A stretch of 64,000 bases of DNA. Origin: Actinomycetota bacterium. Its GTDB lineage: Bacteria > Actinomycetota > Acidimicrobiia > IMCC26256 > PALSA-610. The translations under genes and the position numbers were made by a program. Below are positions 29,125 through 57,318 of this stretch, one piece after another. The stretch's first letter is position 1, and the number at the start of each line of letters is the position of its first letter. The stretch is taken from assembly GCA_005773635.1 (NCBI GenBank), contig SXHN01000074.1:1-64000 (forward strand). The letters run 5' to 3'. A model generated the notes under the pieces. The model was not told where the DNA came from. It did no database searches and saw only the letters and a program-made list of their open reading frames with translations.

Positions 29125-29140
29125 TAGAACGCGTTACACT
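29125..29140 (+). promoter_or_regulatory. KstR-like operator overlapping the -10 box of the aldehyde dehydrogenase operon
   Basis: TAGAACGCGTTACA (29125-29138) fits the mycobacterial KstR motif TnnAACnnGTTnnA at every fixed position and has a palindromic core AACGCGTT. TACACT (29135-29140) is a -10 box 7 bases before the ATG. A TetR-type repressor here would block transcription. Confidence 0.5.
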
Positions 29141-29147
29141 TCCGCGT

Positions 29148-30617
29148 ATGACTAGCGGAAGCTTTAAGAATCTGATCGGGGGGCAATGGGTCGACGGCGC
29201 CGACGGCGCCTATGAAATCCATAATCCCGCCAACGGCAGTGTGGTCGGCCATGCACCCGAAGCATCGGTGCAACAGTCGCTCGATGCCGCTCGTGCTGCG
29301 AAGGACGCGTTCGCAAGCTGGTCGCGTACGACGCCCGAGTACCGAGCGGAGCTTTTGTCGAAAGCCGCCGACGCAGTGCGCGCCCACTCGGCAGATCTCG
29401 TGCCGCTGGTGATCTCCGAGACTGGTTGCACTGCCGCCGTCGGTAACACAATGCAGGTGCCGCAAGTGGTGGCGCGGTTCGATCGTTACGCCCGCGGCGC
29501 GATGGAAGACCTCGATATCCCCCTGTCTCCTATGGAGATGCCTGCAACTGCGCTTGCGCCCGGTGGCATTATGGGCGCAGTAATTCGCCGCATCCCGGTC
29601 GGCCCGGTTGCGTGCATCTCTCCGTACAACTTTCCGCTGGTGAACATCGCCGGAAAGATCGGCCCCGCGCTCGCTACTGGCAACACCGTCGTGGTGCGGC
29701 CCGCGTCGCAAGACCCGTTGGCCGTCATCGAATTGTGTCGCATCCTCAACGACGAAGTCGGATTTCCCGAAGGCGTGATCAACTGCGTTACTGGTTCGAC
29801 ACCTCCGAGCGGTGAAGCACTTGTCGAAACCCGCGACATCGACATGATCTCATTTACCGGTTCGACGGGGGTCGGCTTGCGAATCGCTGAGGTGGGCGGG
29901 CGCACGATGAAGCGGTTGCTGCTCGAACTCGGTGGTAAGGGCGCGGCGTTAGTACTTGAAGACGCTGATGTGAAAACTGCCGTTGGCGCAATCATGTCGG
30001 TGTGGGCATTTCACTCGGGGCAAATTTGTACGGCGCCGACACGCGTTATCGTGCACCGTTCGAAGTATGACGAACTCTGCTCGGGCCTCGTGCAAGCAGC
30101 TGGCTACCTGAAGGTCGGCGACCCTCTGGCACTAGGCACCGTTGTCGGTCCGTTGATCACTGAAGCGCACCGCGCTCGCGTGGAGAGCTATATCGCGGCC
30201 GGAGTTGCCGAGGGCGCCACCGTCGCGGTCGGCGGCGGGCGGCCCGATGGGCTTGATCAAGGCTGGTATGTCGAGCCGACGTTGATCACTGAGTGTCGCC
30301 CCGACATGAGGGTGGTGCGCGAAGAAATCTTCGGACCCGTTGTGGTAGTCGTGCCCTTCGACGGTGACGATGAAGCTGGCATCGCGATCGCGAACGACTC
30401 AGATTTCGGCCTCTACGACTATGTGTTCTCAGGAGATTCGGGCCGTGCGCTGCGGGCTGGCCAGCTCTTGCGGGCCGGAAACATCGGCATCAACACAGTG
30501 CAGCGCCACCACGAGGCGTGTTTCGGCGGCACGAAATATTCGGGTGTCGGACGAGATGGCGGAAGCTTCGGTTTGCATGCCTATACCGAGATGCAAAGCA
30601 TGGTTTGGAGCCGATAG
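29148..30617 (+). CDS. NAD(P)-dependent aldehyde dehydrogenase
   Basis: A 489-aa ALDH-superfamily enzyme. The NAD-site FTGSTGVGLRIAE, the general-base Glu in LLLELGGKGAAL and the catalytic Cys in SGQICTAPTRV are present, as is EIFGPVVVV. It oxidises an aldehyde to the acid. It is first of three genes with overlapping ends: its TAG shares a base with the GTG of the first LLM oxidoreductase. The leaderless promoter carries a KstR-like operator, so the substrate may come from lipid or isoprenoid catabolism (inference). Confidence 0.93.
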   Translation: MTSGSFKNLIGGQWVDGADGAYEIHNPANGSVVGHAPEASVQQSLDAARAAKDAFASWSRTTPEYRAELLSKAADAVRAHSADLVPLVISETGCTAAVGNTMQVPQVVARFDRYARGAMEDLDIPLSPMEMPATALAPGGIMGAVIRRIPVGPVACISPYNFPLVNIAGKIGPALATGNTVVVRPASQDPLAVIELCRILNDEVGFPEGVINCVTGSTPPSGEALVETRDIDMISFTGSTGVGLRIAEVGGRTMKRLLLELGGKGAALVLEDADVKTAVGAIMSVWAFHSGQICTAPTRVIVHRSKYDELCSGLVQAAGYLKVGDPLALGTVVGPLITEAHRARVESYIAAGVAEGATVAVGGGRPDGLDQGWYVEPTLITECRPDMRVVREEIFGPVVVVVPFDGDDEAGIAIANDSDFGLYDYVFSGDSGRALRAGQLLRAGNIGINTVQRHHEACFGGTKYSGVGRDGGSFGLHAYTEMQSMVWSR

Positions 30618-31555
30618 TGACAGTGAACATCGTTCCCGACGGCGAGTTGGCCTACGGCATTCAGCTGCCCGTGCAGGCGAAATCCGTGCGCACTTCAATG
30701 GAGTGGGAGCGCGGTGCGGAGATCGGTGCATCTGCGATGGTGCGGGCCGCGAAAGCGTGTGACGACGCCGGCTTCTTCTACGTCGCAGTGTGCGATCATG
30801 TTGCCGTTGCAGCTCCGGCCGCGATCGACGGCGGCATGTCGGCGACGTGGTACGACCCGATCGCAACGCTTGCCTATGTCGCAGCGGTGACTACCCATAC
30901 GCGGTTGATGACGAACGTGTATGTCGCGGCCTATCGCCACCCGTTGCAGACTGCGAAACACTTCGCCACAATCGACGCGCTGAGTAACGGTCGTGCAATT
31001 TTGGGAGTGGGCGTCGGCCACTTGCAGAGCGAGTTCGATGCACTCGGCGTCTCGTTCGTGGATCGAGGTGCTGCAACCAACGATGCGATTGATGGAGTGA
31101 TCGCTGCATGGGGCAACGAATTCCAGCAACTGCCGGCCCCGGTGCAAACGCCCCGGCCTCCTATTTGGATCGGCGGGTCAGGGGCGCCGGCATTGCGTCG
31201 CGTCGCGGAACGCGGCGATGGGTGGATTCCGCAAGGCACACTGCGCACCGTGATGCCTGAATCGATCGCGTTCATTCGCGCGCACCGCGACATGGTGCGC
31301 CCCGACGCGAAGCTGGATATCGGCTATATCCACGAGTATGTGTACGTGGGCGAAGCCAACTGGGATTTCGATGGCGAGTACACGGTTACGGGTTCCGACC
31401 AGCGCATTGTCGATAAGTGCAATGAAATGGGCACGATGGGCGTGAACCATTTGCAGATGCGGCTGCGATGCAGGGATCTCGACGAGTTCTGCGATCAGGC
31501 GGCGGCATTCGGTGAGCGGATTGGGCCCCACCTCGAATCGCAGGGAGCTATCTAA
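30617..31555 (+). CDS. LLM-class (luciferase-like) F420/flavin-dependent oxidoreductase
   Basis: A 312-aa luciferase-like TIM-barrel protein: YGIQLPVQAKS, DDAGFFYVAVCDHVAV, TRLMTNVYVAAYRHP, LGVGVGHLQSEFDALGV and PPIWIGGSGAPALRRVAERGDGW are typical of the F420-binding group in actinobacteria. GTG 30617 overlaps the ALDH stop by one base; the longer frame lies inside the ALDH gene. Such enzymes reduce or oxidise ketones, alcohols or sulfur/nitrogen groups. It is coupled to a second LLM gene by TAATG. The exact reaction is unknown. Confidence 0.88.
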   Translation: MTVNIVPDGELAYGIQLPVQAKSVRTSMEWERGAEIGASAMVRAAKACDDAGFFYVAVCDHVAVAAPAAIDGGMSATWYDPIATLAYVAAVTTHTRLMTNVYVAAYRHPLQTAKHFATIDALSNGRAILGVGVGHLQSEFDALGVSFVDRGAATNDAIDGVIAAWGNEFQQLPAPVQTPRPPIWIGGSGAPALRRVAERGDGWIPQGTLRTVMPESIAFIRAHRDMVRPDAKLDIGYIHEYVYVGEANWDFDGEYTVTGSDQRIVDKCNEMGTMGVNHLQMRLRCRDLDEFCDQAAAFGERIGPHLESQGAI

Positions 31556-32538
31556 TGGCGGTCATGGTCACGATGCGCCAAGACTTTCGAGCGCCCGCGT
31601 TTGGCCCCGCGACGACTGCCGAGATCTATTCGGAAGCGTTAGCGATGTGGGCTTGGGCCGATTCACGTGGTTGGGACATGGCCGTGGTGTCAGAGCATCA
31701 TGGCATCGCCGACGGGTGGATGCCGTCGCCATTCACGATCGCAGGCATGGGCCTCGGCCGCACACAGCGGATCCCGTTTTTTATCTCAGCGTCGTTGTTG
31801 CCGTTACATGATCCAATACGAATTGCGGAACAAATCGCCGTGCTCGACTGTGCTGCGCCGGGTCGCTTAATGACGGTGTTTGGTGCTGGATACCGCGTCG
31901 AGGAATTTGAAATGGCTGGGGTCGCCCACAAGGAGCGCACGAAGATCCTGGAAGCGAGCATCGCCGTTGTGCGCGATGCCCTTGAACACGGAGTTGTTGA
32001 ATATCAGGGCCGATCCGTGACGGTAACGCCGCGCCCAGTCACGCTGCCGCACCCGATGCTGTTTGTTGGTGGCGGTGTGCCTGCTGCAGCACGGCGAGCC
32101 GCGCGTTTGCGGTTGCCAATGATGCCGATGAACACCGACCCGGAGCTCCCGATCGCGTATGCAGCCGAAGCGCAACGGGTGGGCTACACCGAAGGGTTCG
32201 TGATGCACCCCAACGGCCCGACCTTCTTGCATGTCGCCGACGATCCCGAACGGGCATGGGTAGAGATTGGCGAGTACCTCTTCTACGAAACGAGCACGTA
32301 CGCCTCATTTCAAACTCCTGGCCAACACTCCACACCCGTCGTGCACGCCGACGACATTGAAGGGCTGAAAACTGCGTCGAACCTATGGATCGGCACACCG
32401 CAACAGATCATCGATCGTGTGCAAGCCCACCCCGACGTTGCCGCGCTCAACTTTCATCCGCTAGCGGGCGGTTTGCCGCCGCGTCTGGCATGGGAAAGCC
32501 TCGAATTGTTCGAAAACAAGGTGCGAAAATACATCTAG
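31555..32538 (+). CDS. LLM-class flavin-dependent oxidoreductase/monooxygenase
   Basis: A 327-aa luciferase-like protein, only distantly similar to the preceding one: DMAVVSEHHGIADGWMPSP (bacterial luciferase-type His-His), LPLHDPIRIAEQIAVLD, GRLMTVFGAGYR and LFVGGGVPAAARRAARL. ATG 31555 overlaps the previous stop (TAATG), so the two LLM proteins are made together and may act in sequence on one compound. It meets the convergent DUF202 gene with a 4-base overlap of ends. Confidence 0.88.
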   Translation: MAVMVTMRQDFRAPAFGPATTAEIYSEALAMWAWADSRGWDMAVVSEHHGIADGWMPSPFTIAGMGLGRTQRIPFFISASLLPLHDPIRIAEQIAVLDCAAPGRLMTVFGAGYRVEEFEMAGVAHKERTKILEASIAVVRDALEHGVVEYQGRSVTVTPRPVTLPHPMLFVGGGVPAAARRAARLRLPMMPMNTDPELPIAYAAEAQRVGYTEGFVMHPNGPTFLHVADDPERAWVEIGEYLFYETSTYASFQTPGQHSTPVVHADDIEGLKTASNLWIGTPQQIIDRVQAHPDVAALNFHPLAGGLPPRLAWESLELFENKVRKYI

Positions 32539-32879
32539 GGCGCGAGGGCTAGCGCGAGTGCCGCGATTCCTAACGCGGAGGTGCCGTATGCGGTTGCGGC
32601 CAACGTGCGCGCGTTCGCCACGGGGCGGCCTTCGAGGCTGGCGCGGGCAATGAGGCGGGCCCATGCCAACCCAATGGCCCAGCCGACGCCAGCGACGGCC
32701 AACGCCGCCATCACAATTGTGAGTGCCGACGGGTCGTCGACAGTATCGAGGATGCGCTTCGCTACGGCGCCGAGAAGTGTCAAAACTGCAAGGCCAGAGC
32801 GCGACCACGCCATGTCGGTACGTTCGCCAGCAAGCCCCGGCACCTCGTGGTCGTCGATTGACGCATTCACTTGGGTCAT
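32535..32879 (-). CDS. DUF202 membrane protein
   Basis: A 114-aa protein with three predicted helices. The family hallmark ERT-x2-AWSRSGLAVL follows the N-terminal tail, then TIVMAALAVAGVGWAIGLAW and a C-terminal helix. DUF202 (YidH-type) proteins are small inner-membrane proteins without known function. Its ATG overlaps the stop of a second DUF202 gene by four bases, so a hetero-oligomer is likely. Confidence 0.85.
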   Translation of the reverse strand: MTQVNASIDDHEVPGLAGERTDMAWSRSGLAVLTLLGAVAKRILDTVDDPSALTIVMAALAVAGVGWAIGLAWARLIARASLEGRPVANARTLAATAYGTSALGIAALALALAP

Positions 32880-33241
32880 TGTGTTCCGATGCTTGCAACG
32901 ACGGCGGCGATTATTGCGGCGAGGGTCACTCCGATCGCCAACAATTTAGGGAGATTCGACGCGGGCAACGGACGTTGTTCGCGCATTGCCCGTTCGTTGG
33001 CATCCCAACGCCAAAAGCTGGTCATCGACAGTAACGCACCGAGGGTAATGAGCGGGACGCCGATGATTTTGCGGCCACCGCCGAACGAGAACTCTGGCAA
33101 CACCGATGCTGCCGCGAGGCCAGTCGCGATGAGCGCCATCGCGGTGCGATTCCACGCGAGAAAAGTGCGTTCGTTCGCATATGAAAATCGCACGTCGGGC
33201 TCGGTGCCGATCTCGTGCAGCGGTCGTTTGTCGCGTGCCAT
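32876..33241 (-). CDS. DUF202 membrane protein (YidH-like)
   Basis: A 121-aa protein with the DUF202 signature YANERTFLAWNRTAMALIATG and two further hydrophobic helices (IIGVPLITLGALLSMTSFW, LLAIGVTLAAIIAAVVASI). The ATG follows the sulfatase TGA directly (TGAATG), making a sulfatase-DUF202-DUF202 operon. Tandem DUF202 pairs are common in bacteria. Function unknown. Confidence 0.87.
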   Translation of the reverse strand: MARDKRPLHEIGTEPDVRFSYANERTFLAWNRTAMALIATGLAAASVLPEFSFGGGRKIIGVPLITLGALLSMTSFWRWDANERAMREQRPLPASNLPKLLAIGVTLAAIIAAVVASIGTQ

Positions 33242-34744
33242 TCAGTATCCCAATCGAACAAACTGATCTGCGGGCGCTTCTACCTCGGTGAGTGCTGCAT
33301 GCAACATATCGGCGAGATGCGCACCAAAACGATCATCACAAAGGTTGCGCAGTTCGCCGGGATCGGAGCCGAGGTCGAATGCCTTGGAGCCGTCGAACTT
33401 TGCGTACGACCAAAACGGTCGTGGGTCACTGGCTTCGAAGGGTTGTCGAATAACAGGTATCGACGACCCCGGCATGTGGTCGAGATAGGCGCGATCATCG
33501 GGCATCGGTAGTTTGAGATCGGGAAAGCCACCCACTGGCATCGTGCTCCAGCGGTTCGAAAACATCGACATCGGCACGTTTCCCGCTACTGGAGCGCGCA
33601 CATACTTTGCGTGATCCGCGATGAGATGCACTTCACGCCCGTATACACCGGACAGCGCCCACTCGCGAATGGAAACGGCTTCGCGGTGCAAAAGCGGAAG
33701 CAGTGAGTGCCCATGGGTCCGGTGGTCACTCGTCGCCCCGAAGATGTCGAGCAGTGTCGCATGAAGATCGACGTTGGTCGTGAGCGCGTCGCACGTCATT
33801 GGTGACGCGGCATTGCTGTCTGTCGGCCATCGAATCAACAACGGCGTGTGACCGAGCGGCTCGTAGATCGGGCACGCGGGCTTGCCCCAGATGTCGTGTT
33901 CACCAAGGAAGTGCCCATGATCCGTACACACGATTACCGCAGTGTCGTCGTTGCTCTCATCGATTGCGGTGAGGAGCTCGCCAAACCAGTGATCAATGAA
34001 CGTGAGCTTCGCGCCGTAGTTGGCGCGAATTTGGCGGCCTTCCCGTTCGGTGATGACGCCCTTCGCGACGGCTCCGACGGTGTACGGCGGCCAGATCAGT
34101 CGTTGCGCCTCTGACCAATCTGGGTCGTACATCGACGCATACGGCTCTGGCGTATCGAATGGTTCATGCGGATCAAATTCGTCGATGAACAACAAGAACC
34201 GGTCGTGGTGAATCGCTTCTTCGCGCAGCCAGCGTGCCGCTTCTCGCATAACCCGAGGGCCAGGAAAGTCGGCTTCATCGCGAAACCAGCCGCGAGAATG
34301 GTCATAGTGCGACGATGGGCGGCCGAACATTGGTGCGCCGATCCAGCTTGGATCTGCGTGTGTGCGCCATGGATCGCTCTCGTGTCCGCGTTGGTAATCC
34401 CAAGCGGTGAATTCGGTGTGGTAATTCTCGCCGCCCACTTCGAACAGATGCGGATGGTCGGTCACGAGTTTGGTGACCACACCAGCCCGACGCAGTGGCG
34501 CCGTCAGCGGCTCTTCCCACAATTCCACTGATCCCCACGGTTTCCAGAGAAAATCGAGTGCCCCGCACAACAAGTCGTGGCGGGCGGGCATACAGGGCAG
34601 CGAACCGCTGTAATGCTGCGTAAAGCGAGTTGCGCTATCCGCGAAACGATCCAAATTGGGGGTGGCGAATTCGGTGCTGCCGTACGCGCCGAGCATGTGG
34701 CGATTGAGTGAGTCGAGCAGTACTACGACCACGTTCTGCGCCAT
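33242..34744 (-). CDS. Sulfatase (formylglycine-dependent, cytoplasmic)
   Basis: A 500-aa sulfatase of the alkaline phosphatase superfamily. The FGly motif CMPARHDLLCG (Cys51) is intact for oxidation by the formylglycine-generating enzyme. Metal and core motifs VVVLLDSLNRHMLG, FIDEFDPHEPFD and VIVCTDHGHFLGEHDIWGKP are present. The N-terminal metal site has Asp-Ser rather than Asp-Asp, a variant seen in related actinobacterial sulfatases. There is no signal peptide, so the sulfate ester must be taken up. ATG 34744 is chosen over 34804 because a TACGGT -10 box lies 7 bases upstream of it and the conserved region begins there. It is divergent from a P450 gene. Confidence 0.9.
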   Translation of the reverse strand: MAQNVVVVLLDSLNRHMLGAYGSTEFATPNLDRFADSATRFTQHYSGSLPCMPARHDLLCGALDFLWKPWGSVELWEEPLTAPLRRAGVVTKLVTDHPHLFEVGGENYHTEFTAWDYQRGHESDPWRTHADPSWIGAPMFGRPSSHYDHSRGWFRDEADFPGPRVMREAARWLREEAIHHDRFLLFIDEFDPHEPFDTPEPYASMYDPDWSEAQRLIWPPYTVGAVAKGVITEREGRQIRANYGAKLTFIDHWFGELLTAIDESNDDTAVIVCTDHGHFLGEHDIWGKPACPIYEPLGHTPLLIRWPTDSNAASPMTCDALTTNVDLHATLLDIFGATSDHRTHGHSLLPLLHREAVSIREWALSGVYGREVHLIADHAKYVRAPVAGNVPMSMFSNRWSTMPVGGFPDLKLPMPDDRAYLDHMPGSSIPVIRQPFEASDPRPFWSYAKFDGSKAFDLGSDPGELRNLCDDRFGAHLADMLHAALTEVEAPADQFVRLGY

Positions 34745-34751
34745 GTTTGGG

Positions 34752-34757
34752 ACCGTA
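34752..34757 (-). promoter_or_regulatory. -10 box of the sulfatase operon (leaderless)
   Basis: TACGGT on the minus strand, 7 bases before the ATG at 34744. Confidence 0.45.
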
Positions 34758-34838
34758 GTCGGCCAACGCTCTGATTGTTGCGAAGCTGGGAGAGTGGTCA
34801 GCAACGGTCCAGTTCAGGGCCCTGTCGCGCGTCATTAT

Positions 34839-34856
34839 GAGAACACGTTCTAGTAT
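34839..34856 (+). promoter_or_regulatory. KstR-like palindrome overlapping the -10 box of the P450 gene
   Basis: AGAACACGTTCT (34840-34851) is an inverted repeat AGAAC-AC-GTTCT; the 14-base KstR frame (34839-34852) fits at seven of eight fixed positions. TAGTAT (34851-34856) is a -10 box 6 bases before the ATG. Confidence 0.55.
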
Positions 34857-36344: not shown

Positions 36345-37550
36345 TCAGCGTTCGTCGATGTGCCAGGGCTCGCCGAAGTTGTTCATGAGATCGAGGTAGG
36401 GGACAGCGTCGAATGCTTCCGGGCCGAGCACGCCACTACCTTCCCAAATGCCATTCGCGAGTAGTTCCAGTGCAAACACTGGATTGATTGCGGTTTGCCA
36501 TACAACCGCTTGGCAGCCGTGTTTTGCCATGGTTTCTTCGTTGTCGCTCACGTGATACAAGTACGACGCTCGCGGCTTGCCATCTTTGCCGAGCCCGGTC
36601 ACATAGGTGCCAGCACACGTGCGCCCATGCATCTTGTCGCCGAGACTCGCCGGGTCGGGGAGACACGCGGCTACAACATCGCGCGGCGACACCTCCACGC
36701 CGCGAACATTTACTTGAGGAGTGCGGTCAAGCCCGAGTTTGTGCAGCGTTTCCAACACCGAGATGAATTCGTCGCCCAGCCCATATTTGAACGTGACCTT
36801 GTTGCAATCGATCCAGCGTGGCACAAGGAGCACCTCTTCGTGCTCCACGTGTACGCATTCCACATCGCCGATACCGTCCGGGAAGTGAAACACTTCAGGT
36901 TCGGAAAATGGTGGGAGACAAAACCACCCTCGGTCGCGCTCCCAAACAATGGGAGGGTTTAAACATTCTTCGATCACAGTCCAAATCGAAAACGTTGGAG
37001 CAAAGTCGTATCCATCGATTGTGAGATTCGCGCCATCGCGAACCCCGACCTCGTCGATCTGCGAAAACAGGTGGTCGGCTGCGTAGCGCGCCGCCACATC
37101 GGCGAAACCGGGTTCGATGCCCAGGCCACACAACGCAAGCTGACCACGCGCTTCCCATGCAGATGCAACCGCGAACTGTGCATCGCCGAGCTTCACGCCG
37201 CATTCTTCGTGCGGATTGGTGGGGTGAGGCTCCGACAATGTCATTGCCATGTCCATGTAGTTGACGCTCGCGTCGAATGCGCCCTGAAAGATGCCAGGGT
37301 TGAATCGGGGATCGCATGCGTTCATCACGATGTCGACTCCATGAGCCTTCGCCAACGCCGCTACATCCTGGGCGCTCGACGCATCAACTCGGGCCGCCGT
37401 GAACCGCGAATCGTTCACGCGCTCGGCGATGCTGCGCGCCTTGGCTTCGTCAACGTCAGCGATTACCAGATGATCAAAGAATTCGCGGCCGCTTGCGGCC
37501 ACCGCCATCGCGCCGCCCACTCCGCCTGCACCAACGATCAGAATTTTCAT
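36345..37550 (-). CDS. Saccharopine dehydrogenase-family NAD(P)-binding protein
   Basis: A 401-aa protein with an N-terminal Rossmann fold (KILIVGAGGVGGAMAVAA, VIADVDEAKARSIAERV) and the saccharopine dehydrogenase/homospermidine synthase-like catalytic region (NYMDMAMTLSEPHP, LCGLGIEPGFADVAARYAAD). Family members act on amino-acid or polyamine imines; carboxynorspermidine-type synthases are close relatives. ATG 37550 has a TACCCT -10 box 6 bases upstream. It stands alone between the P450 and an operon of unknown pathway; with a polyamine-type synthetase further right, a polyamine role is possible but unproven. Confidence 0.85.
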   Translation of the reverse strand: MKILIVGAGGVGGAMAVAASGREFFDHLVIADVDEAKARSIAERVNDSRFTAARVDASSAQDVAALAKAHGVDIVMNACDPRFNPGIFQGAFDASVNYMDMAMTLSEPHPTNPHEECGVKLGDAQFAVASAWEARGQLALCGLGIEPGFADVAARYAADHLFSQIDEVGVRDGANLTIDGYDFAPTFSIWTVIEECLNPPIVWERDRGWFCLPPFSEPEVFHFPDGIGDVECVHVEHEEVLLVPRWIDCNKVTFKYGLGDEFISVLETLHKLGLDRTPQVNVRGVEVSPRDVVAACLPDPASLGDKMHGRTCAGTYVTGLGKDGKPRASYLYHVSDNEETMAKHGCQAVVWQTAINPVFALELLANGIWEGSGVLGPEAFDAVPYLDLMNNFGEPWHIDER

Positions 37551-37601: not shown

Positions 37602-38390
37602 TTACCAGAGTTGGTCGGTGTAGGTATCGGTGCCCACGACGGTCGCTCGAAACGGCGAGCAGAACGCCGCTTTCGCGATGCCCGCAGCTTCCATAGCTGC
37701 GCCGAGTCTCGCGAAAGAGTCGGCCCACAACGCTGGGAGGTCGCCATCAACGAACCACAACACTGTGAAGCGATTCCCGCCGTCGCTTCTGGGAACGTCG
37801 CTCGGAGCGTCGCCTGCCAACGGAATAGGTGTGAACTCAACTCCGACGACTGCGGGAAGTTCATGTGACTTCAAGAACGTATCGACTTGCTCCAGCGAAA
37901 CTCCGGGGAGCGGCTCGCCAATGAACAACACGGCGTACGGTGAACGGTGATCGAGGGCCAGTTCCGCTGGCACCCCGTCGGGAAGTTCCAACGACGCGCG
38001 GTGTTCGTACATCACGGTGTGAATGTGGTCGCGCTCCAAAAACATGCGGCCGTTTTCGTGCAGCCAGCGCACCTGCGCGACGCCCCACTTCATCCACTCG
38101 GTGAATTTGCCGTCGAGGATCCAATAGATCGCGACATAGCTCCCGGAATTCGGATCGGGGCAAACGTCGTTGTCGACCGGATAACGCAACGCTTTCAAAT
38201 CTTTAGTGGCAACATAGCGACCCCCTTGAATTGTCCAAGCACCAATCATGCAACCCGCGAAATAGTGATCACGCTCGTACCAACGGTTGTACGCGACCTC
38301 ATGGCCCCTGCGCGGCTCAACCATGGTGATCAACGCCCCGCCAAGCGCGATTGGTCGATGTTCGGTGGTACCGGATCCGAGTTCTTGCAT
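37602..38390 (-). CDS. Uncharacterised protein with two possible dimeric alpha-beta barrel (EthD-like) halves
   Basis: A 262-aa soluble protein. The N-terminal half GALITMVEPRRGHEVAYNRWYERDHYFAGCMIGAWTIQ has the strand-helix pattern and Tyr/His residues of EthD-like dimeric alpha-beta barrels; the C-terminal half (VVGVEFTPIPL...RFTVLWFVDGDLPALWADSF) looks like a second barrel. Such proteins are accessory enzymes or heme/ligand binders in catabolic clusters. The ATG shares a base with the stop of the upstream CoA ligase (TAATG), so both work in one pathway. No specific function can be named. Confidence 0.72.
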   Translation of the reverse strand: MQELGSGTTEHRPIALGGALITMVEPRRGHEVAYNRWYERDHYFAGCMIGAWTIQGGRYVATKDLKALRYPVDNDVCPDPNSGSYVAIYWILDGKFTEWMKWGVAQVRWLHENGRMFLERDHIHTVMYEHRASLELPDGVPAELALDHRSPYAVLFIGEPLPGVSLEQVDTFLKSHELPAVVGVEFTPIPLAGDAPSDVPRSDGGNRFTVLWFVDGDLPALWADSFARLGAAMEAAGIAKAAFCSPFRATVVGTDTYTDQLW

Positions 38391-39868
38391 TACACGTACT
38401 CCTTGGCTTGTTCACGTAAGATCGTCTTGTCGACTTTGTGCATCGCATTGACGGGAAGTTCTTCGACACACACCAAGCGCTCGGGACTTTTGTAGTCCGC
38501 GAGCTGCGACCGACACCAATCGCGTACGTCTGACAGCGACGGTGGAGAGTGTTGCGAATCGACAACGAGAAACGCCACTCCAATTTCGCCCACGATTGGG
38601 TCGGGCGCTCCCACCACTGCGGCCGCGATGATCGCGGGATGTTCAGATAACACCGCCTCGACCTCCGCGGGATACACGTTGTAGCCACCGCGGATGTACA
38701 TCTCTTTCAAGCGGCCAACGATGCGCAAGTTGCCCTCGGGTGTCGCGTAGCCGAGATCACCGGTGCGCAGAAATCCGTCGTTGTCAAGTGCATCGGCCGA
38801 GCCCTCAGGATCATTCCAATAGCCGCGAAACATGGCAGGCGACCGGAGCCGGATTTCACCCACGTTGCCTTGCCCCACCGTTGCGTCAGTCCCAGGGGCA
38901 ACCAACCGCATTTCGACGACAGAACTGGGCACACCAACCGTCGTCGCCACAACTTCATCGGAGTCGCTGAGTTGCGTCCCGGTCGCGAGGCCAGCTTCGG
39001 TGCTGGTGTAGCGGGTCATGACGGCGCAGCCAAGACGTTGGCGCACCGCGCGGACTAGCTCAGGCGCAACCGCCGCACCGCCAATCCCAGCAAGGCGCAG
39101 CAGCGATAGATCGATCTCGGCGAGACGAGGGCACTCCAGCATTTTCACCCATTGCGTTGGCACTCCGGTTGCCATAGTGATGCGTTCACGCTCGAGCAGA
39201 TCCACTTGCTTGTCTGCGGTCCACGGATCGGGTACGAGAACCATCGTGACCGTGTTTGCAATGTCGTCCCATGCGCGCGTCATGTATCCAACGTGCGCAA
39301 ACGGCAACGATACGACGCGTCGATCGCCAGGTGCCGATAGGTCACCCATACCTTCGTGAATCGCTTTGAGACAGCGGTGATCGTAGACGGCGCCTTGCGG
39401 TAACCCCGTCGTGCCGCTCGTCCAAACAATCGCCACCGTGTCAGCATCGTGTAAACGCACAGCGAGTCGCGGAGTTCCACGCGTATACAACTGCGACAAT
39501 TCGCCGACCCTCAGCACCGTTCCCCATTCCGACCCGACGTCGAGTGTGTCCGGCGCCACCGTCAACACGGGCGATGTTCTGTGCGAAATGCTCGCTCGTT
39601 CGTTGGGGCCCAAGCGAGGATTCACTGCAGACGTGATCGCGCCCACCTTCATCGCCGCCATATAACACAACGCGAAATCAATAGATGACGGCATGAGCAA
39701 CGTGACCACATCACCGTGTTTGACACCACGATCTTGCAGCGAGGTCGCTATGCCATCGGACATCGCGCCAAATTGCTCGAACGTGATGCGCCGGTCGCCA
39801 TCGACATACGCGTCCCGGTCGCCATGGGTACCGGCCGCCCATTCCAACACCTCGACCACCGTCTGCAC
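38390..39868 (-). CDS. Acyl-CoA synthetase (AMP-binding)
   Basis: A 492-aa ANL ligase: P-loop AIVWTSGTTGLPQG, TRYTSTEAGLATG, hinge NLRIVGRLKEMYIRGGYNVYPAEVE and the terminal catalytic Lys in NAMHKVDKTILREQ, where the usual GK is replaced by HK. It activates a carboxylic acid to its CoA thioester. Start GTG 39868 with a TACGAT -10 box 8 bases upstream and no ribosome-binding site. Two palindromes cover the promoter. It is first in a two-gene operon with the EthD-like protein. Confidence 0.88.
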   Translation of the reverse strand: MQTVVEVLEWAAGTHGDRDAYVDGDRRITFEQFGAMSDGIATSLQDRGVKHGDVVTLLMPSSIDFALCYMAAMKVGAITSAVNPRLGPNERASISHRTSPVLTVAPDTLDVGSEWGTVLRVGELSQLYTRGTPRLAVRLHDADTVAIVWTSGTTGLPQGAVYDHRCLKAIHEGMGDLSAPGDRRVVSLPFAHVGYMTRAWDDIANTVTMVLVPDPWTADKQVDLLERERITMATGVPTQWVKMLECPRLAEIDLSLLRLAGIGGAAVAPELVRAVRQRLGCAVMTRYTSTEAGLATGTQLSDSDEVVATTVGVPSSVVEMRLVAPGTDATVGQGNVGEIRLRSPAMFRGYWNDPEGSADALDNDGFLRTGDLGYATPEGNLRIVGRLKEMYIRGGYNVYPAEVEAVLSEHPAIIAAAVVGAPDPIVGEIGVAFLVVDSQHSPPSLSDVRDWCRSQLADYKSPERLVCVEELPVNAMHKVDKTILREQAKEYV

Positions 39869-39876
39869 GGTTGGGC

Positions 39877-39908
39877 ATCGTAGGACCTACGCCTCATTTA
39901 TGAAATGA
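39877..39908 (-). promoter_or_regulatory. Promoter of the CoA ligase operon with two palindromes
   Basis: The minus-strand -10 box is TACGAT (39877-39882). It is overlapped by the palindrome CGTAGGACCTACG (39879-39891), followed by TCATTTATGAAATGA (39894-39908), whose 6-base arms are perfect. Two adjacent operators, or one composite one, are likely. Confidence 0.5.
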
Positions 39909-40006
39909 AGACCCATTCGATATCAACCCGAAACCAAACCAGCCGATGATTGACGACAAGAACACGCTTCGAGTCCCGACCCCCCCCTATGGGCACAAGG
40001 AGCGCG

Positions 40007-40044
40007 AGCCCGCCGGACTTGCAACGAAGCCAGTCCGGCGGGCT
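40007..40044. terminator. Strong 13-base-pair hairpin between divergent genes
   Basis: AGCCCGCCGGACT (40007-40019), a 12-base loop, then AGTCCGGCGGGCT (40032-40044): a perfect GC-rich stem followed by TTACTTCT. It looks like a terminator, yet the flanking protein genes point away from it, so it may end an unannotated small RNA on the plus strand or shield the SDR promoter. Confidence 0.55.
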
Positions 40045-40113
40045 TACTTCTGACCGAATTTTGCCGCTACTTGTCTATTGGTCGGTCGAATCGCCTCGTT
40101 CGGGTGCAAGGGT

Positions 40114-40119
40114 TAGATT
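40114..40119 (+). promoter_or_regulatory. -10 box of the SDR operon (leaderless)
   Basis: TAGATT stands 9 bases before the ATG at 40129. Confidence 0.4.
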
Positions 40120-40128
40120 CTGCGGCCT

Positions 40129-40884
40129 ATGACACGATTTTCTGGCAAGGTTGCACTTGTGACTGGCGCAGGTAGTGGCTTGGGTCGGGCGACCGCGCGG
40201 CGTTTGGCAAGTGAGGGAGCGACAGTTGCGTGTCTTGATATCGCTGCTGATGCGGCGAAGGCGACCGCCGACGGCATCATCGCTGATGGAGGCCACGCTC
40301 GGGCCTACATGAGCGACGTGAGCGACCCTGATTCATCACGAAATGCCGTCGATGCTGCCGCGAGCGATCTCGGCCGAGTGCAACTCGCGATCACGTGTGC
40401 GGGCATTGGTCGGCTGGTACACACCCATGAGATGCCGTGGGAGATGTGGCGAAAAATTTTGGGTGTCAACCTCGACGGGACCCTGTTGATCTGTCAAGCC
40501 GCAATACCGTATTTGCTCGACGGTGGTGGTCGGATCGTGACCATTGCTAGTAACGCTGGATTGATGGGTCAGCCCTACTCAGCCGCGTACTGTGCGAGTA
40601 AGGGCGGCGTAGTGAATCTCACGAAGGCGTTAGCAGCGGAATACATGACCAAGGGCATCACGGTGAACTGTGTCGCGCCCGGAGGTATGGACACCCCGTT
40701 GCAAAACTCCTTCGCGACAACGCTTCCCGAAGGCGCGAGCTTTCGAGAACTCCACAAAGTGATGACTCCCATGGGCGTCAGTCAACCTGAAGAGGTCGCT
40801 TCGGTGATCGCATTCGTAGCTTCCGACGAAGCGCGGTACATGACTGGGTCGATCGTGAGCATCGACGGTGGCCTGACGATCTAG
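40129..40884 (+). CDS. SDR-family oxidoreductase
   Basis: A 251-aa short-chain dehydrogenase. The cofactor loop TGAGSGLG, CAGIG strand and active-site Tyr/Lys in YCASKGG (with Ser in the preceding IASNAG region) identify a classical SDR; the Asp in CLDIA favours NAD(H). It ends DGGLTI as usual. It is first of three plus-strand genes (SDR, CoA ligase, LLM oxidoreductase) spaced by 33 and 0 bases, which probably degrade one compound. The substrate is likely a hydroxy acid, ester or alcohol. Confidence 0.92.
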   Translation: MTRFSGKVALVTGAGSGLGRATARRLASEGATVACLDIAADAAKATADGIIADGGHARAYMSDVSDPDSSRNAVDAAASDLGRVQLAITCAGIGRLVHTHEMPWEMWRKILGVNLDGTLLICQAAIPYLLDGGGRIVTIASNAGLMGQPYSAAYCASKGGVVNLTKALAAEYMTKGITVNCVAPGGMDTPLQNSFATTLPEGASFRELHKVMTPMGVSQPEEVASVIAFVASDEARYMTGSIVSIDGGLTI

Positions 40885-40917
40885 CTTCGTTTCTCGACCT
40901 GCGCGTGAGGAGTGCAA

Positions 40918-42453
40918 ATGTTTGATGATGCAAAGTCGGTCTCGGAGCTGATCGAACGCCGCGCGGCCGCGAGCCCTAACAAGGTGATGCTGTGCGCCGG
41001 CGAACGCGAAATGACCTTTGTTCAGTATCGCGATGCCGTCGAGGTGGCCGCGGCCGGTTGGGCGGCGCTCGGCGTTGATGAAGGCGACCACGTGTCGTGG
41101 CAACTACCGACGTGGATCGAATCGGCGGTCTTGGTCGGGGCACTGTGTCGCCTCGGCGCGATCCAAAACCCGATGTTGCCGATCTACCGGCAAAAAGAAA
41201 TCGGATTTATTACCGGCCAACTCGGAACAAAATTGCTCATCACGCCGAGCACATGGAACAACTTCAACTATCACGAACTTGCATCGTCGATCGTCGGAGA
41301 TTCAGCAGTGATCGCAGACTCCTGGAACCCTGACGGCGACCCGTCGACGCTGCCTCCAATGCCCAAGGTGTTCGACAACCGTGGCGATGATCCGGTGCGT
41401 TGGGTGTTTTATACGTCAGGCACAACGAGCGATCCGAAGGGCGCACAACATACGGATCGTTCGGTGATGCAGGCTGCCATTGGATACGCCAAGAAGACCC
41501 ATGTGACCGAACACGACATCGCGATTGTTGCGTTTCCCTTCACGCACGTTGGCGGGGCGATCATTGGAGTATTCACGCCGTTACTCACTGGCTCGACCGC
41601 AGTGTTAATGGAGGCCTTCAGCCCGCAACTGACCACCGAGTTGGTGGGGCGTCACAAGGTGACGTTGGGCAATGGAGCGCCGGCGATTCATCAAATGCTG
41701 ATCGCTGAAGCCAAAGCACACCCCGAGGCGTACGCGCACGTCCGAGCCTTTCCAGGTGGCGGGTCGCCCAAACCCCCGAATCAACATGATGAAATCCGAG
41801 CGGTCGTGCCGAGCGCCACACAGGGCATCAACTCGGGGTACGGGCTCACCGAGGCGCCGATCTTGACGCAGACTGATACGGACGCGCTGGATGCAAGCAA
41901 GATTGTAGGTGAAGGCACGCCAACGGAAAGTGTGACGATTCGTCTCATTGATGGGAGCGGCAACGATGTTGCGGCTGGTGCCGAAGGCGAGATCGTGGCC
42001 AAGGGCAATCAGGTGATGCGCGGCTATACCGACCCGTCGCTTGACGCCGCGGCATTTACTCCAGACGGCTTTTTCAAGACCGGCGACATAGGTCGGTTCC
42101 TTGCCGACGGCACGATCGTTGTTACCGGTCGCATCAAAGACATCATAATTCGCAAGGGCGAAAATGTTTCGGCCAAAGAGGTGGAAGACACACTGTTTAA
42201 TCACCCGCTGATTGCCGATGTTGCGGTGTTCGGCATCCCCGACATGGATCGAGGCGAAATGGTGGTCGCCGCGATTGTTCCCAAGGTCGCGGCGAACGCG
42301 CCCGACCAGGCATCGGTGTTGAATTTTTGTAAAGACGCGGGGTTGATGCTGCAGAAAATTCCCGAACGAATAATGGTGCTGGATGCGCTGCCACGAAACC
42401 CAAGCGGCAAAGTGCCGAAGCACGAACTCCGTCGACAACTCGTAGGCGAATAG
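40918..42453 (+). CDS. Acyl-CoA synthetase (AMP-binding)
   Basis: A 511-aa ANL ligase: P-loop WVFYTSGTTSDPKG, INSGYGLTEAPI, hinge TIVVTGRIKDIIIRKGENVSAKEVE and catalytic Lys in NPSGKVPKHELRRQL. ATG 40918 is preceded by GAGGAG at 5-6 bases, so this gene, unlike the operon leader, has a ribosome-binding site; the frame's GTG two codons earlier is less well placed. Similar to cyclohexane-1-carboxylate or medium-chain ligases of actinobacteria. Its stop TAG is followed at once by the ATG of the LLM gene. Confidence 0.88.
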   Translation: MFDDAKSVSELIERRAAASPNKVMLCAGEREMTFVQYRDAVEVAAAGWAALGVDEGDHVSWQLPTWIESAVLVGALCRLGAIQNPMLPIYRQKEIGFITGQLGTKLLITPSTWNNFNYHELASSIVGDSAVIADSWNPDGDPSTLPPMPKVFDNRGDDPVRWVFYTSGTTSDPKGAQHTDRSVMQAAIGYAKKTHVTEHDIAIVAFPFTHVGGAIIGVFTPLLTGSTAVLMEAFSPQLTTELVGRHKVTLGNGAPAIHQMLIAEAKAHPEAYAHVRAFPGGGSPKPPNQHDEIRAVVPSATQGINSGYGLTEAPILTQTDTDALDASKIVGEGTPTESVTIRLIDGSGNDVAAGAEGEIVAKGNQVMRGYTDPSLDAAAFTPDGFFKTGDIGRFLADGTIVVTGRIKDIIIRKGENVSAKEVEDTLFNHPLIADVAVFGIPDMDRGEMVVAAIVPKVAANAPDQASVLNFCKDAGLMLQKIPERIMVLDALPRNPSGKVPKHELRRQLVGE

Positions 42454-43371
42454 ATGCAGGTTTCCGTCACCATCTCCGGCTTCACGCGGCTCTTCGACAA
42501 CGACCTCAGCAAAGTGCTCGACGCTGCGAAAGTTATCGATGACGCGGGCGTACACCAGCTTGTGCTCGCGGACCACGTCGTGATGGGGGATCGAACGGAC
42601 CGTTATCCCTTTGGCACATTTCCGTACCCATCCGAAGAACCCTGGCCTGAGCCGTTGACGTTGTTGGCCGCGATTGCTGCGGTCACCACGAACGTCCGGC
42701 TCGGCACGGGAATCCTCATTGCGCCATTGCGCCCGCCCGCACTGCTTGCCAAAACGGTGGCAACCCTTGATCAGATCAGTGGAGGTCGGGTCGACCTCGG
42801 GGTAGGCACTGGCTGGCAGCGCGAAGAGTATGGCGCGTGCGATGTGCCTTGGAATACCCGATGGCAACGACTCGACGACACGATGCGCGCGTGTGCTGCC
42901 CTGTGGACGACGCCAGGGCCGGTGAAGTTTGCATCCGAAACCGTTTCGTTCGATGCCGTGTGGTGCAATCCAATGCCAGTGCAGACGGCCGCGGACTCTG
43001 GGATCCCCGTCTGGTACGGGGTGGCTGCAAGCGGAGACCACATCGCACGCATGGCTGAGCTTGGTGCTGGTTGGTTACCGATTCACATCACGACGCCGGA
43101 CGAACTTCGTGATGGCATTGTGGCCCTGCGGGCCGCGGTCGCCGATCGCGGTCGCGATCCCAAGGCGTTTCACGTGCGGGCCGGAGCGCGACCGGTGATG
43201 GGCGACGACGGCAGGCTCGACACGGCCGCGACCCAGGCCGAGAATGCCTGGCTTGCCGAAGCGGGCGTCGACTCGGTGAGCATCGGCACTGGGCGTCACG
43301 TGGCCGACGGCGAGTCGCTGCGAGCGTTTTTGAGCGATGCCGTTGAGGCCTTCGCAGGTATTTCGTCGTAA
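42454..43371 (+). CDS. LLM-class F420-dependent oxidoreductase
   Basis: A 305-aa luciferase-like protein of the F420 group: DDAGVHQLVLADHVVMGDRTDRYPFG, TNVRLGTGILIAPLRPPALLAKTVATLDQISGGRVDLGVGTGWQREEY. The start follows the ligase stop without a gap. In actinobacteria such proteins often handle ketosteroids, terpenoids or other CoA-activated intermediates next to FadD genes. The direction of the redox step cannot be told. Confidence 0.9.
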   Translation: MQVSVTISGFTRLFDNDLSKVLDAAKVIDDAGVHQLVLADHVVMGDRTDRYPFGTFPYPSEEPWPEPLTLLAAIAAVTTNVRLGTGILIAPLRPPALLAKTVATLDQISGGRVDLGVGTGWQREEYGACDVPWNTRWQRLDDTMRACAALWTTPGPVKFASETVSFDAVWCNPMPVQTAADSGIPVWYGVAASGDHIARMAELGAGWLPIHITTPDELRDGIVALRAAVADRGRDPKAFHVRAGARPVMGDDGRLDTAATQAENAWLAEAGVDSVSIGTGRHVADGESLRAFLSDAVEAFAGISS

Positions 43372-51727: not shown

Positions 51728-52402
51728 GTGATAGACGGCGTAGCTCCCGAGGGTGTGAACGCCGAGCGCGCGATCGACGGCCGCGAACTTGGCATTCGAG
51801 GCGCGGCAACCCGCCGGCGATTGCTCGACGCGACCGCTGAGCTGCTCCAAAATCACGGGGTTCGCGAATTACGGGTCGTTGACATTGCGCGCTCGGTGGG
51901 AACCTCTCCGGCGACCTATTACCAGTACTTCCGCGATGTTGATGAAGCTGTGCTCGTACTGGCTGACGAAGTGGGCACCAACGACGTCATGCCCATCGCA
52001 TTGTTGTTCGATCGCTTATGGGATTCCACCAGCGGCTTGGACATAGTGCGTGAACTAGTGCGCAGCTACTTCCAAATGTGGGATTCGCATCATGCGGTGC
52101 TTCGGACACGCAATCTGAGCGCCCAAGAAGGCGATCAACGATTTCGTGCAATACGCAACCGCACCAATCGGCCCTTTCTTGAAGGCTTCGCGGCGCAGGT
52201 GAGGGAGCATCAGGCAATGGGTGCAGTTGCTAGCGAAATTTCAGCGGTCGCAGCTGCAGCCGCGCTGACGGCGCTGATTGAGCGGATGGCCGCATTCCAT
52301 TCAGAGTTGCGGGCACTCGGCATCAACCGCGACGATGTGATTGAAACGACCGCTCGCATATGTTTTCAAACTGTTCTTGGCACTCAAGGAGCGCAAACAT
52401 GA
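51728..52402 (+). CDS. TetR-family transcriptional regulator
   Basis: A 224-aa regulator with N-terminal helix-turn-helix TRRRLLDATAELLQNHG, VVDIARSVGTSPATYYQYFRDVDE and an effector-binding domain ending DDVIETTARICFQTVLG. The KstR-like mycobacterial regulators have the same overall plan, but this does not look like KstR itself. GTG 51728 or a GTG ten codons later could be the start. Its stop overlaps the ATG of the aldehyde dehydrogenase gene (ATGA), so it probably controls that gene and itself. Confidence 0.88.
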   Translation: MIDGVAPEGVNAERAIDGRELGIRGAATRRRLLDATAELLQNHGVRELRVVDIARSVGTSPATYYQYFRDVDEAVLVLADEVGTNDVMPIALLFDRLWDSTSGLDIVRELVRSYFQMWDSHHAVLRTRNLSAQEGDQRFRAIRNRTNRPFLEGFAAQVREHQAMGAVASEISAVAAAAALTALIERMAAFHSELRALGINRDDVIETTARICFQTVLGTQGAQT

Positions 52403-53856
52403 ATTTCGAATCCCGCATGTTGATCGACGGCGAATTGGTTGAAGCCGAAGCCGGTCGCACGTACAACAACATCAACCCCGCAACCGAGGAAGTGATCGGC
52501 GTTGTGGCCGACGCGTCTCCTGGTGACATGCAGCGTGCGATCGCAGCTGCCCGCAGAGCGTTCAATGAGTCTCCTTGGGCGACTGATCGCGAACTGCGCA
52601 AGCGCTGCTTGTTGCAATTGCAAACTGCGCTCGCCAACACTCGCGAAGATCTACGACCTCAGATCGTCGCCGAGGTGGGTACGCCGATTGCGCTGACGTT
52701 CGCGATCCAGCAGGACAGTTGCATCGACGACATGACGTGGGATATCGATGTGATCGACCGCTACGAATGGGAACGCGAACTCGGGGTGCATGAGTTCTTC
52801 GGGCTCACGAGTAACCGACTCGTGGTGAAAGAACCTATTGGTGTCGTAGGCGCGATTACGCCCTGGAACTTTCCGTTCATGCTCAACTTGTCGAAGATCG
52901 TCCCCGCACTAGCTGCGGGCTGCACTGTTGTTTTGAAGCCGGCTCCGGACACACCGTATAGCGCCACATGGATTGGCAAGATGATCGCGGAGCACACAGA
53001 TTTTCCTGCTGGCGTCATCAATGTCGTTACCGCTTCGGACCCTGCGGAAGTCGCCGAGATGCTGACGACGTCGCCCGACGTCGACATGATTTCCTTCACT
53101 GGGTCGAGCGTGGTCGGAAAGCGCATCACTGAGGTCACGTCGGCAACTCTCAAGCGAGTGTTTTTGGAACTTGGTGGAAAATCTGCGAACATCGTGCTTG
53201 ATGACGCCGACTTTCCGGCGGTGCTTTCATCGGCGAGCATGGTGTGCATGCATAGTGGTCAGGGCTGCGCGATTACGACGCGGTTGTTGCTGCCTCGTTC
53301 GCGCTACGACGAAGGCGTCGCAATCATCAAGGAGTCATTCGAGAAGTTTGGGTACGGAGACCCGAACGATTTCGCGAACATGGCGGGGCCGCTTATCAAC
53401 GCCAAACAGCGCGAACGAGTCCTGGGATACATCGAAAAAGGTCAGGCCGAAGGCGCCAAGTGCGTGGTCGGTGGCGGCCCTGCCACGCAATTCGACAAGG
53501 GCTACTTCGTGCAACCGACGTTGTTCATCGACGTCGACCCCGACTCGACCATTGCGCAAGAAGAGATCTTCGGACCGGTGCTGGCGGTGATCCCATATGA
53601 CGATGACGATGATGCCGTACGCATTGCCAACAACTCCCGTTACGGCCTGTCGGGTGCCGTCAACTCGGGGTCGCTTGATCGTGCGCTGTCAGTTGCGCGC
53701 CGCATTCGTACCGGCACGATCGCAGTGAACGGCGGCCAATGGTTTGGCCCTGATTCGCCGTTCGGTGGATACCGTGAATCGGGGACCGGTCGTGAGCATG
53801 GCATCGCCGGTTTCGAGGAATACCTTGAGACCAAAACGATCGGACTTCCGGGCTAG
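52399..53856 (+). CDS. NAD(P)-dependent aldehyde dehydrogenase
   Basis: A 485-aa ALDH-superfamily enzyme: PWNFPFMLNLSKIVPALAAG, FTGSSVVGKRITE, general-base Glu in VFLELGGKSANIVLDD, catalytic Cys in SGQGCAITTRL, and EEIFGPVLAVIPYDDDD. It resembles aldehyde dehydrogenases beside sterol or terpene genes in Mycobacterium. Translation is coupled to the TetR regulator through ATGA, so the aldehyde or its precursor is a candidate effector. It is followed after 73 bases by a class II aldolase gene. Confidence 0.93.
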   Translation: MNFESRMLIDGELVEAEAGRTYNNINPATEEVIGVVADASPGDMQRAIAAARRAFNESPWATDRELRKRCLLQLQTALANTREDLRPQIVAEVGTPIALTFAIQQDSCIDDMTWDIDVIDRYEWERELGVHEFFGLTSNRLVVKEPIGVVGAITPWNFPFMLNLSKIVPALAAGCTVVLKPAPDTPYSATWIGKMIAEHTDFPAGVINVVTASDPAEVAEMLTTSPDVDMISFTGSSVVGKRITEVTSATLKRVFLELGGKSANIVLDDADFPAVLSSASMVCMHSGQGCAITTRLLLPRSRYDEGVAIIKESFEKFGYGDPNDFANMAGPLINAKQRERVLGYIEKGQAEGAKCVVGGGPATQFDKGYFVQPTLFIDVDPDSTIAQEEIFGPVLAVIPYDDDDDAVRIANNSRYGLSGAVNSGSLDRALSVARRIRTGTIAVNGGQWFGPDSPFGGYRESGTGREHGIAGFEEYLETKTIGLPG

Positions 53857-53866
53857 CCAGACGACG

Positions 53867-53886
53867 CCGGTCGCGGTTCCAACCGG
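53867..53886 (+). terminator. Weak inverted repeat after the aldehyde dehydrogenase gene
   Basis: CCGGT (53867-53871) and ACCGG (53882-53886) flank a second nested repeat CGGTTCCAACCG (53874-53885). Two alternative short hairpins could form. It may be a weak terminator or an operator for the downstream gene. Confidence 0.25.
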
Positions 53887-53917
53887 GAGCAGATGTCCGT
53901 CGCGGCGGCTTTGGAGT

Positions 53918-53923
53918 TAGGCT
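53918..53923 (+). promoter_or_regulatory. -10 box of the class II aldolase gene (leaderless)
   Basis: TAGGCT lies 6 bases before the ATG at 53930; no ribosome-binding site. Confidence 0.45.
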
Positions 53924-53929
53924 TGGCGC

Positions 53930-54697
53930 ATGACTGCAACGATGCCCGACCTCAGTTACCTTCCTACCTTCGACTCGGTCGAAGCTGAACGCCTACACCG
54001 TAAACAACGTTTGGCTGCGGGGTTTCGACTGTTTGGCAAATTCGGTTTCGATGAAGGCGTAGCGGGACATATCACGGTTCGTGATCCCGAGCATCTTGAT
54101 CAGTTTTGGGTCAACCCATTTGGGATGAACTTCAAACACATCCGCGTCAGCGACCTTATTTGCGTCGATCATTCTGGGACGGTCGTGCACGGCGATGCGT
54201 TTGTCAACGGCGCCGCGTTTGCTATTCATAGTCAGATCCACGCGGCTCGGCCGGATATCGTAGCTGCCGCGCATTCGCATTCGATTTACGGCAAGGCCTG
54301 GTCATCGCTGCATCGACTCCTCGACCCTCTTACGCAAGACGCCTGCGCATTCTTTGAAGACCATGTCGTGTTCGACGGGTATTCCGGCGTGGTGCTTGAT
54401 TTGTCTGAAGGCAAACGAATTGCAGAAACGATGGGTCACAAAAAGGCTGCGATCTTGGCGAACCACGGATTGCTGACGAGCGGGAATTCGGTCGATGAAG
54501 CCGTATGGTCGTTCATTACGATGGAACGTTCGGCGCAGGCCCAGTTGCTTGCCGAAGCCGCGGGAACGCCGATATCAATCGAACCTGAGGTTGCACGGAG
54601 CACGCGCCGCCAAGTTGGTTCTCCCGTTGCTTGCTACTTCTCATTCCAGCCGCTCTGGGACATGATCACTCGCGAGCAGCCCGATCTGTTTGACTAA
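53930..54697 (+). CDS. Class II aldolase/adducin-family protein
   Basis: A 255-aa protein of the class II aldolase/adducin fold (fuculose-phosphate aldolase relatives). EGVAGHITVRDPE, the metal-binding His pair in AAHSHSIYGKAW and the third His region in AILANHGLLTSGNSVDEAVW are conserved, so a Zn-dependent retro-aldol or decarboxylation reaction is possible. Members lacking phosphate-binding residues are often catabolic enzymes of unknown substrate. It overlaps the frame leading into xerC, whose first usable ATG lies 5 bases after its stop. Confidence 0.88.
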   Translation: MTATMPDLSYLPTFDSVEAERLHRKQRLAAGFRLFGKFGFDEGVAGHITVRDPEHLDQFWVNPFGMNFKHIRVSDLICVDHSGTVVHGDAFVNGAAFAIHSQIHAARPDIVAAAHSHSIYGKAWSSLHRLLDPLTQDACAFFEDHVVFDGYSGVVLDLSEGKRIAETMGHKKAAILANHGLLTSGNSVDEAVWSFITMERSAQAQLLAEAAGTPISIEPEVARSTRRQVGSPVACYFSFQPLWDMITREQPDLFD

Positions 54698-56566: not shown

Positions 56567-57217
56567 ATGAAGTTTGCTCCGGCATGCGTCTTTGCTTGTT
56601 GTTCGTCACTGGTCGCCTTTGGAATTGGTTCCAACGCCGCCGCAATGGTGGGCCACTCCTCGACGAGACCGGTTGCGGCCTCGGTAGCCACCGACACCAA
56701 ACAAAATCACTGGATTCGCCCGGTATCCGGGCCAGTCGTGCGACAGTTTGTTGCCCCTTCGACGCCCTACGGCCCTGGTCATCGGGGCATCGATATTCAG
56801 ACCGCCATGGGATCGCCCGTAACGGCCGCGGGGTCAGGACGTGTGGTCTTTTCGGGCCTCGTCGCGGGCGACATGCATGTCACAATTCAGCACCTGCCGT
56901 CGGGATGGTTGACGGGGTACAGCAACCTGGGCTCGCGATCGGTACGAACCGGGCAAAAGGTTCGCGCAGGCGATGAAATCGGGCGCAGCGGTGGACAGTT
57001 GCGCCAGCACAGCCCATCGGTCGTGCACTTCGCCCTGCGCATCGATGGGCAATATCGTGACCCGGAGTTGCTCTTTTGGGCCGGAGCGCGTGTGCGCGTA
57101 CGTCTTGCTCCTATCTCTACCTCTGCAACGCTCAGTTACAAGCGCCCCTTCGGCCGCCGGGTTCACGGCCCGGTACACTCAGCGCTCGGCTCGTCGACCG
57201 GCGACCGATTCCGCTAA
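56567..57217 (+). CDS. Secreted M23 (LytM)-like protein with degenerate active site
   Basis: A 216-aa exported protein: a signal peptide ([20 protein letters not shown]) followed by a LytM/M23 domain (about residues 50-170). The Zn ligands His72 and Asp76 (HRGID) and His154 are present. The two histidines needed for catalysis in LytM are replaced: Asn120 in YSNL (usually YxHL) and Val152 in VVHFALR (usually HLHFEVR). It therefore probably binds cell wall or activates other enzymes rather than cutting peptidoglycan. ATG 56567 follows GAAGG at about 11 bases. M23 genes in this place before rpsB are usual in actinobacteria. Confidence 0.85.
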
Positions 57218-57318
57218 CTATTTCCCACTCGTTACCCCAAGGTGGCGTCGCTCCGACCGATTCGGAGTTTGGCGCTGGCGCGAGTGGTCCGCAATATCAA
57301 CCAAGGGAGCGCTCCAAC

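Follow-up and report, generated by a model that had tools for sequence, protein, structure and literature searches.

Putative KstR-type operators before an aldehyde dehydrogenase operon and a CYP125-like P450 gene in an Acidimicrobiia genome

Genes and sites of the locus

The window, that is the whole stretch of 64,000 nucleotides (64 kb) analysed here, carries an operon in which an aldehyde dehydrogenase (ALDH) gene is followed by two genes for LLM-class oxidoreductases, and it also carries a gene for a CYP125-like cytochrome P450 (Table 1). The listed start of the first LLM gene overlaps the ALDH gene, and its homology to relatives starts near 30602. The ALDH-LLM-LLM order is conserved in L037, G001, G002, G006 and G012, and in L037 and G002 the P450 gene comes after it. 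These genes had been described in the initial annotation as being of the types found in the KstR regulon, which is borne out by the profile matches of the ALDH and LLM families and by the PDB matches of the P450, the best of which are CYP125MRCA (495 bits), CYP125 (5dqn, 352 bits), CYP124 (342 bits) and CYP142 (234 bits). CYP125 (steroid C26-monooxygenase) is the highest-scoring characterised family and the I-helix and haem motifs are conserved; with CYP125 at 352 and CYP124 at 342 bits, the substrate of the P450 is not readable from the sequence. A sulfatase gene on the minus strand (33242-34804), which probably starts with the ATG at 34744, some 95 nt from operator 2, diverges from the P450 gene and might share operator 2, and a role of its product on a steroid or lipid is speculation; in G002 it is not present between the second LLM gene and the P450 gene. 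A gene resembling carboxynorspermidine synthase and saccharopine dehydrogenase (36345-37550, minus strand) adjoins the P450 gene here as well as in L036 and in G001 (86% identity).

Table 1. Positions of the candidate operators, promoter elements and genes in the window.
Feature	Position	Strand	Evidence
KstR-type operator 1 (putative), TAGAACGCGTTACA	29125..29138		Matrix score 20.9; conserved at ALDH loci
Putative -10 box TACACT (TAnnnT), overlapping the 3' end of operator 1	29135..29140	+	From sequence; 7 nt to ATG
Aldehyde dehydrogenase (ALDH), operon gene 1	29148..30617	+	Pfam Aldedh 473 bits; homologues in 42/61 genomes
LLM-class F420-type oxidoreductase 1	30518..31555	+	TIGR03619 171 bits (cut-off 166.9, passed); synteny
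LLM-class oxidoreductase 2	31555..32538	+	Pfam Bac_luciferase 135 bits; synteny in relatives
KstR-type operator 2 (putative), GAGAACACGTTCTA	34839..34852		Matrix score 19.3; kept before P450 orthologues
Putative -10 box TAGTAT (TAnnnT), overlapping the 3' end of operator 2	34851..34856	+	From sequence; 6 nt to ATG
CYP125-like cytochrome P450	34863..36107	+	PDB matches; haem motif FGGHGPHHCLG

Operator 1 agrees with the KstR motif TnnAACnnGTTnnA at 8/8 fixed positions and operator 2 at 7/8, the latter forming a perfect inverted repeat (AGAAC-AC-GTTCT); both were located again in the sequence where the initial annotation had placed them and with the same matches. Between operator 1 and the ATG of the ALDH gene there are 9 nt, and between operator 2 and that of the P450 gene 10 nt. 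Since the putative -10 boxes lie 6–7 nt from the ATG, leaderless transcription is plausible at both genes, so that of the earlier proposal that the sites sit on the -10 boxes of leaderless promoters the overlap is seen and the leaderless character is plausible. A consensus promoter scan returned nothing useful. In Mycobacterium tuberculosis and M. smegmatis, part of the KstR-regulon palindrome TAGAACnnGTTCTA likewise falls on the -10 region (Kendall et al., 2007; PMC1995591). Additionally, the 15-mer GAGAACACGTTCTAG is common to operator 2 and the published MSMEG_2645 site.

Frequency and conservation of the sites

A weight matrix was built from 47 published KstR sites (Kendall et al., 2007, Table 3; PMC1995591). 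The operators reach 20.9 and 19.3 bits, inside the span covered by the training sites (median 21.8), no position in the rest of the window reaches a score of 10, and for scores of 19 or more chance predicts 0.013 matches in 64 kb. The loose motif TnnAACnnGTTnnA with at most one mismatch occurs in the window at random frequency (17 observed versus 15 expected) and is weakly enriched genome-wide over its reversed control, so it was rejected as proof by itself and replaced as evidence by the matrix and the strict palindrome. The genome-wide site counts come from pattern searches. Matches to AGAACnnGTTCT on contigs C35 and C42 were rejected as regulon members (matrix scores below 11, inside predicted reading frames).

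Among 61 relatives, grouped by whether they encode a KstR homologue (E<=1e-12) and to be read as non-independent samples, the perfect palindrome TAGAACnnGTTCTA occurs 72 times in the 50 genomes with a homologue, against 3 occurrences of the reversed control; for the 11 genomes without one the counts are 0 and 4, respectively. The expectation that the motif exceeds random frequency is thus upheld by the tight palindrome, which is much commoner in the relatives than chance would give and goes together with a KstR homologue, and fails for the loose motif in the window. Of the 29 palindrome sites examined, 19 have the start of a regulon-type gene homologue no more than 250 nt away. In 22 of the 30 ALDH loci compared (that of the window plus those of order-level relatives, with identities down to 63%, again non-independent), the operator 1 14-mer or a variant of it, with a score of 13 or more, was found near the ALDH start, and a single further match of at least 13 occurs elsewhere in these loci. 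Operator 2 is kept at the P450 orthologues of G001 (90%), G006 (81%) and G002 (72%) and at L037 and L036, which are loci from Acidimicrobiia and Actinomycetes MAG records, the four closest orthologues being among those that keep it. Together with the further matches, L037 and L036 place the genome in or near the class Acidimicrobiia. On the other hand, P450 homologues of at most 58% identity are mostly without an adjoining site, which counts against the explanation preferred below.

KstR-family regulators and further genes with the site

The KstR homologue for which the initial annotation had proposed a search is present: the genome encodes three TetR proteins of the KstR family, on contigs C47, C56 and C18. 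Their best solved-structure match is M. tuberculosis KstR (E 8e-28, 2e-21 and 6e-19), and all three combine TetR_N with the C-terminal TetR_C_20 domain (PF17925), as expected of KstR repressors. The cut-off of the NCBIfam KstR equivalog NF033703 (280 bits) is not reached by the proteins of C47 (146.6 bits), C56 (129.6 bits) and C18 (98.5 bits), and the C47 protein, the best of them on this model yet below its cut-off, is therefore termed KstR-like. Its helix-turn-helix (HTH) sequence VQMRDVATEADVALGTVYRYFNSK is nearly identical to that of KstR (VQMRAVADRADVAVGTLYRYFPSK), and the site TAGAACAGGTTTTA lies directly upstream of its gene. The C47-type clade is the widespread KstR type, and the genes of its members are frequently preceded by a site; tree support for its grouping with M. 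tuberculosis KstR is weak (0.50). The HTH of the C18 protein differs (VTMKAVADQSGVALATIYRWFSSK), and a perfect site, TAGAACAGGTTCTA, is flanked by its gene on one side and by an LLM gene of the Rv3520c type (TIGR03559, 418 bits, above cut-off) on the other. This paralogue with an altered recognition helix (L022:4348-4959) occurs here and in a few relatives, and not in G001, which is of the same genus.

The two sites almost certainly belong to the KstR control system known from the cholesterol use of tuberculosis bacteria. That a palindrome this short was matched by chance could be argued from the behaviour of the loose motif, yet coincidence is barely credible in view of their matrix scores, their place on the promoters, their retention in relatives and their occurrence together with KstR homologues. 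It is highly probable that both serve a KstR-type TetR repressor as operators. The likeliest such repressor is the C47 homologue, possibly joined by its C56 and C18 paralogues, although with three paralogues it stays uncertain which TetR is the regulator. Their coexistence in one genome, together with the deviating HTH of the C18 protein and the perfect site beside its gene, would also suit a paralogue of the C18 or C56 type that binds the sites in response to its own ligand, in a sub-regulon no longer responsive to sterols or isoprenoids; this is unlikely, since G001 retains both sites without a C18-type protein and since it is the C47 type that is widespread and so often preceded by a site, although a binder of the C56 type is conceivable. 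The TetR encoded at 51728, which the initial annotation had put forward as a candidate, lies in the window and adjoins another ALDH gene, but it carries a C-terminal domain of the TetR_C_38/EthR_C family, among PDB entries it matches EthR best (3e-7) and the matrix scan of the window gave no KstR-like site near it. Control of both sites by this EthR-like protein is thus very improbable, and its candidacy was dropped in favour of the proteins of C47, C56 and C18.

In the region 51728-54697, the neighbours of the EthR-like TetR are a class II aldolase and an ALDH that scores 682 bits for the Rv0768 type (cut-off 775), and we take the TetR/ALDH pair to resemble the M. tuberculosis pair Rv0767c-Rv0768.

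Further strong sites in this genome comprise two that stand together between a FadD gene and a gene called EchA19-like because its score on the EchA19 model (343 bits) is below the cut-off of 400, one before an acyl-CoA dehydrogenase pair and one between two LLM genes. The two acyl-CoA dehydrogenases match both chains of 4x28 (8e-140 and 3e-61), which is M. tuberculosis FadE26-FadE27. The FadD of C47 passes the cut-off of NF005863 (688 bits against 543), the subfamily to which FadD19 belongs; the FadD of C56 was rejected as FadD19, its best match being the FadD4 model. Published KstR sites of M. tuberculosis include those at Rv3503c/Rv3504, Rv3515c/Rv3516, Rv3520c/Rv3521 and Rv3545c/Rv3546 (Kendall et al., 2007; PMC1995591). 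Here, side-chain genes of the cyp125, fadE26-27 and echA19 types stand under the motif, as expected of a KstR cholesterol regulon. The genes that bear the Rv numbers above include fadE26, fadD19/echA19 and cyp125.

Side-chain oxidation and sterol-ring breakdown

In the mechanism that we infer, including binding, direction of control, ligand and substrate, a TetR dimer on the -10 box would block RNA polymerase at the leaderless promoters of ALDH-LLM-LLM and P450, and accumulation of an isoprenoid-like side chain, oxidised and present as its CoA thioester, would release the repressor from the DNA. A terminal methyl group would be oxidised by the P450 and taken on to the acid by the ALDH, and the co-regulated set of FadD, FadE26-FadE27 and EchA19 would shorten the chain.

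No KshA_C was found in this genome (95% complete), in G001 of the same genus (98%) or in G006 (100%). The leading PF00890 proteins (E<=1e-30) of G000, G001, G006, G003 and G012 look like NadB or SdhA types and were rejected as KstD, and no KstD-type flavoprotein was found in this genome. BphC_D1, marking a BphC-type dioxygenase, was not found in this genome; its use as a test for HsaC rests on PF22632, which presumably covers HsaC. Mce4_CUP1 (PF11887) is absent from this genome and its close relatives (G000-G013). One order-level relative has six Mce-domain genes in a row (L213, L215; G019:C137), and the close relatives are without any. Because this is a draft assembly of 95% completeness, an absence seen here alone weighs less than one shared with relatives. 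With no KshA, KstD-type flavoprotein, BphC-type dioxygenase or Mce4 found, a full sterol pathway is not supported, and the genes look like a KstR-type regulon for the oxidation of a side chain (isoprenoid-like, of a sterol or other) without ring opening. From the sterol or isoprenoid-lipid regulon suggested at the outset, isoprenoid-like side-chain oxidation is retained and full sterol degradation becomes questionable. Complete degradation, with ring-opening genes missed through incomplete assembly or divergence, would be in line with G002, where the orthologous P450 with its site is accompanied by KshA_C and a weak BphC_D1 match, and with the KshA_C genes of other relatives, which carry a KstR-type site (at least 15 near the gene in four of the five KshA_C loci read). 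It is nevertheless doubtful, given that KshA_C is lacking in three genomes of such completeness, that the leading PF00890 proteins of five genomes are NadB/SdhA types and that this genome and its close relatives are devoid of Mce4_CUP1.

The likeness to the KstR regulon of M. tuberculosis and M. smegmatis consists of the palindrome on the -10 region and of the cyp125, fadE26-fadE27, echA19, LLM, ALDH and kstR genes, whereas the present case differs in belonging to another actinobacterial class, in its three KstR-family TetRs, in the spread of its genes over several contigs and in the four ring-breakdown and uptake-type functions named above that were not found (PMC1995591). CYP125-family P450s, CYP142 and cholesterol-degradation genes have been reported in marine Acidimicrobiales, of the same class-level group; the available part of that source treats gene content and describes no KstR regulator or operator (PMC10205998). 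No paper treating KstR in Acidimicrobiia was found, and the KstR literature that was found concerns mycobacteria, Rhodococcus, Nocardioides and Saccharopolyspora. These all belong to the class Actinomycetes, so a known repressor-operator pair would be extended, nearly base for base, to another class of the phylum. Additionally, KstR-type control would be separated from sterol-ring breakdown, which makes it a testable question what the system first evolved to sense. A tentative possibility is that it first served general oxidation of isoprenoid or branched side chains and that sterol-ring breakdown was attached later, this genus and G006 retaining an ancestral-like regulon without ring-opening enzymes. 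The site may also provide a ready marker for sterol- or isoprenoid-using genes in uncultured Acidimicrobiia.

Two other parts of the window were noted. The region 38390-43371, with two acyl-CoA ligases, an SDR and an F420 LLM (TIGR03619, 214 bits, above cut-off), forms a second lipid-type neighbourhood, in which no KstR-like sites were found. At 57076-58278, a 30S ribosomal protein S2 is encoded whose likeness to the model of the 'sunset domain' variant reaches 356 bits, short of the cut-off of 710.
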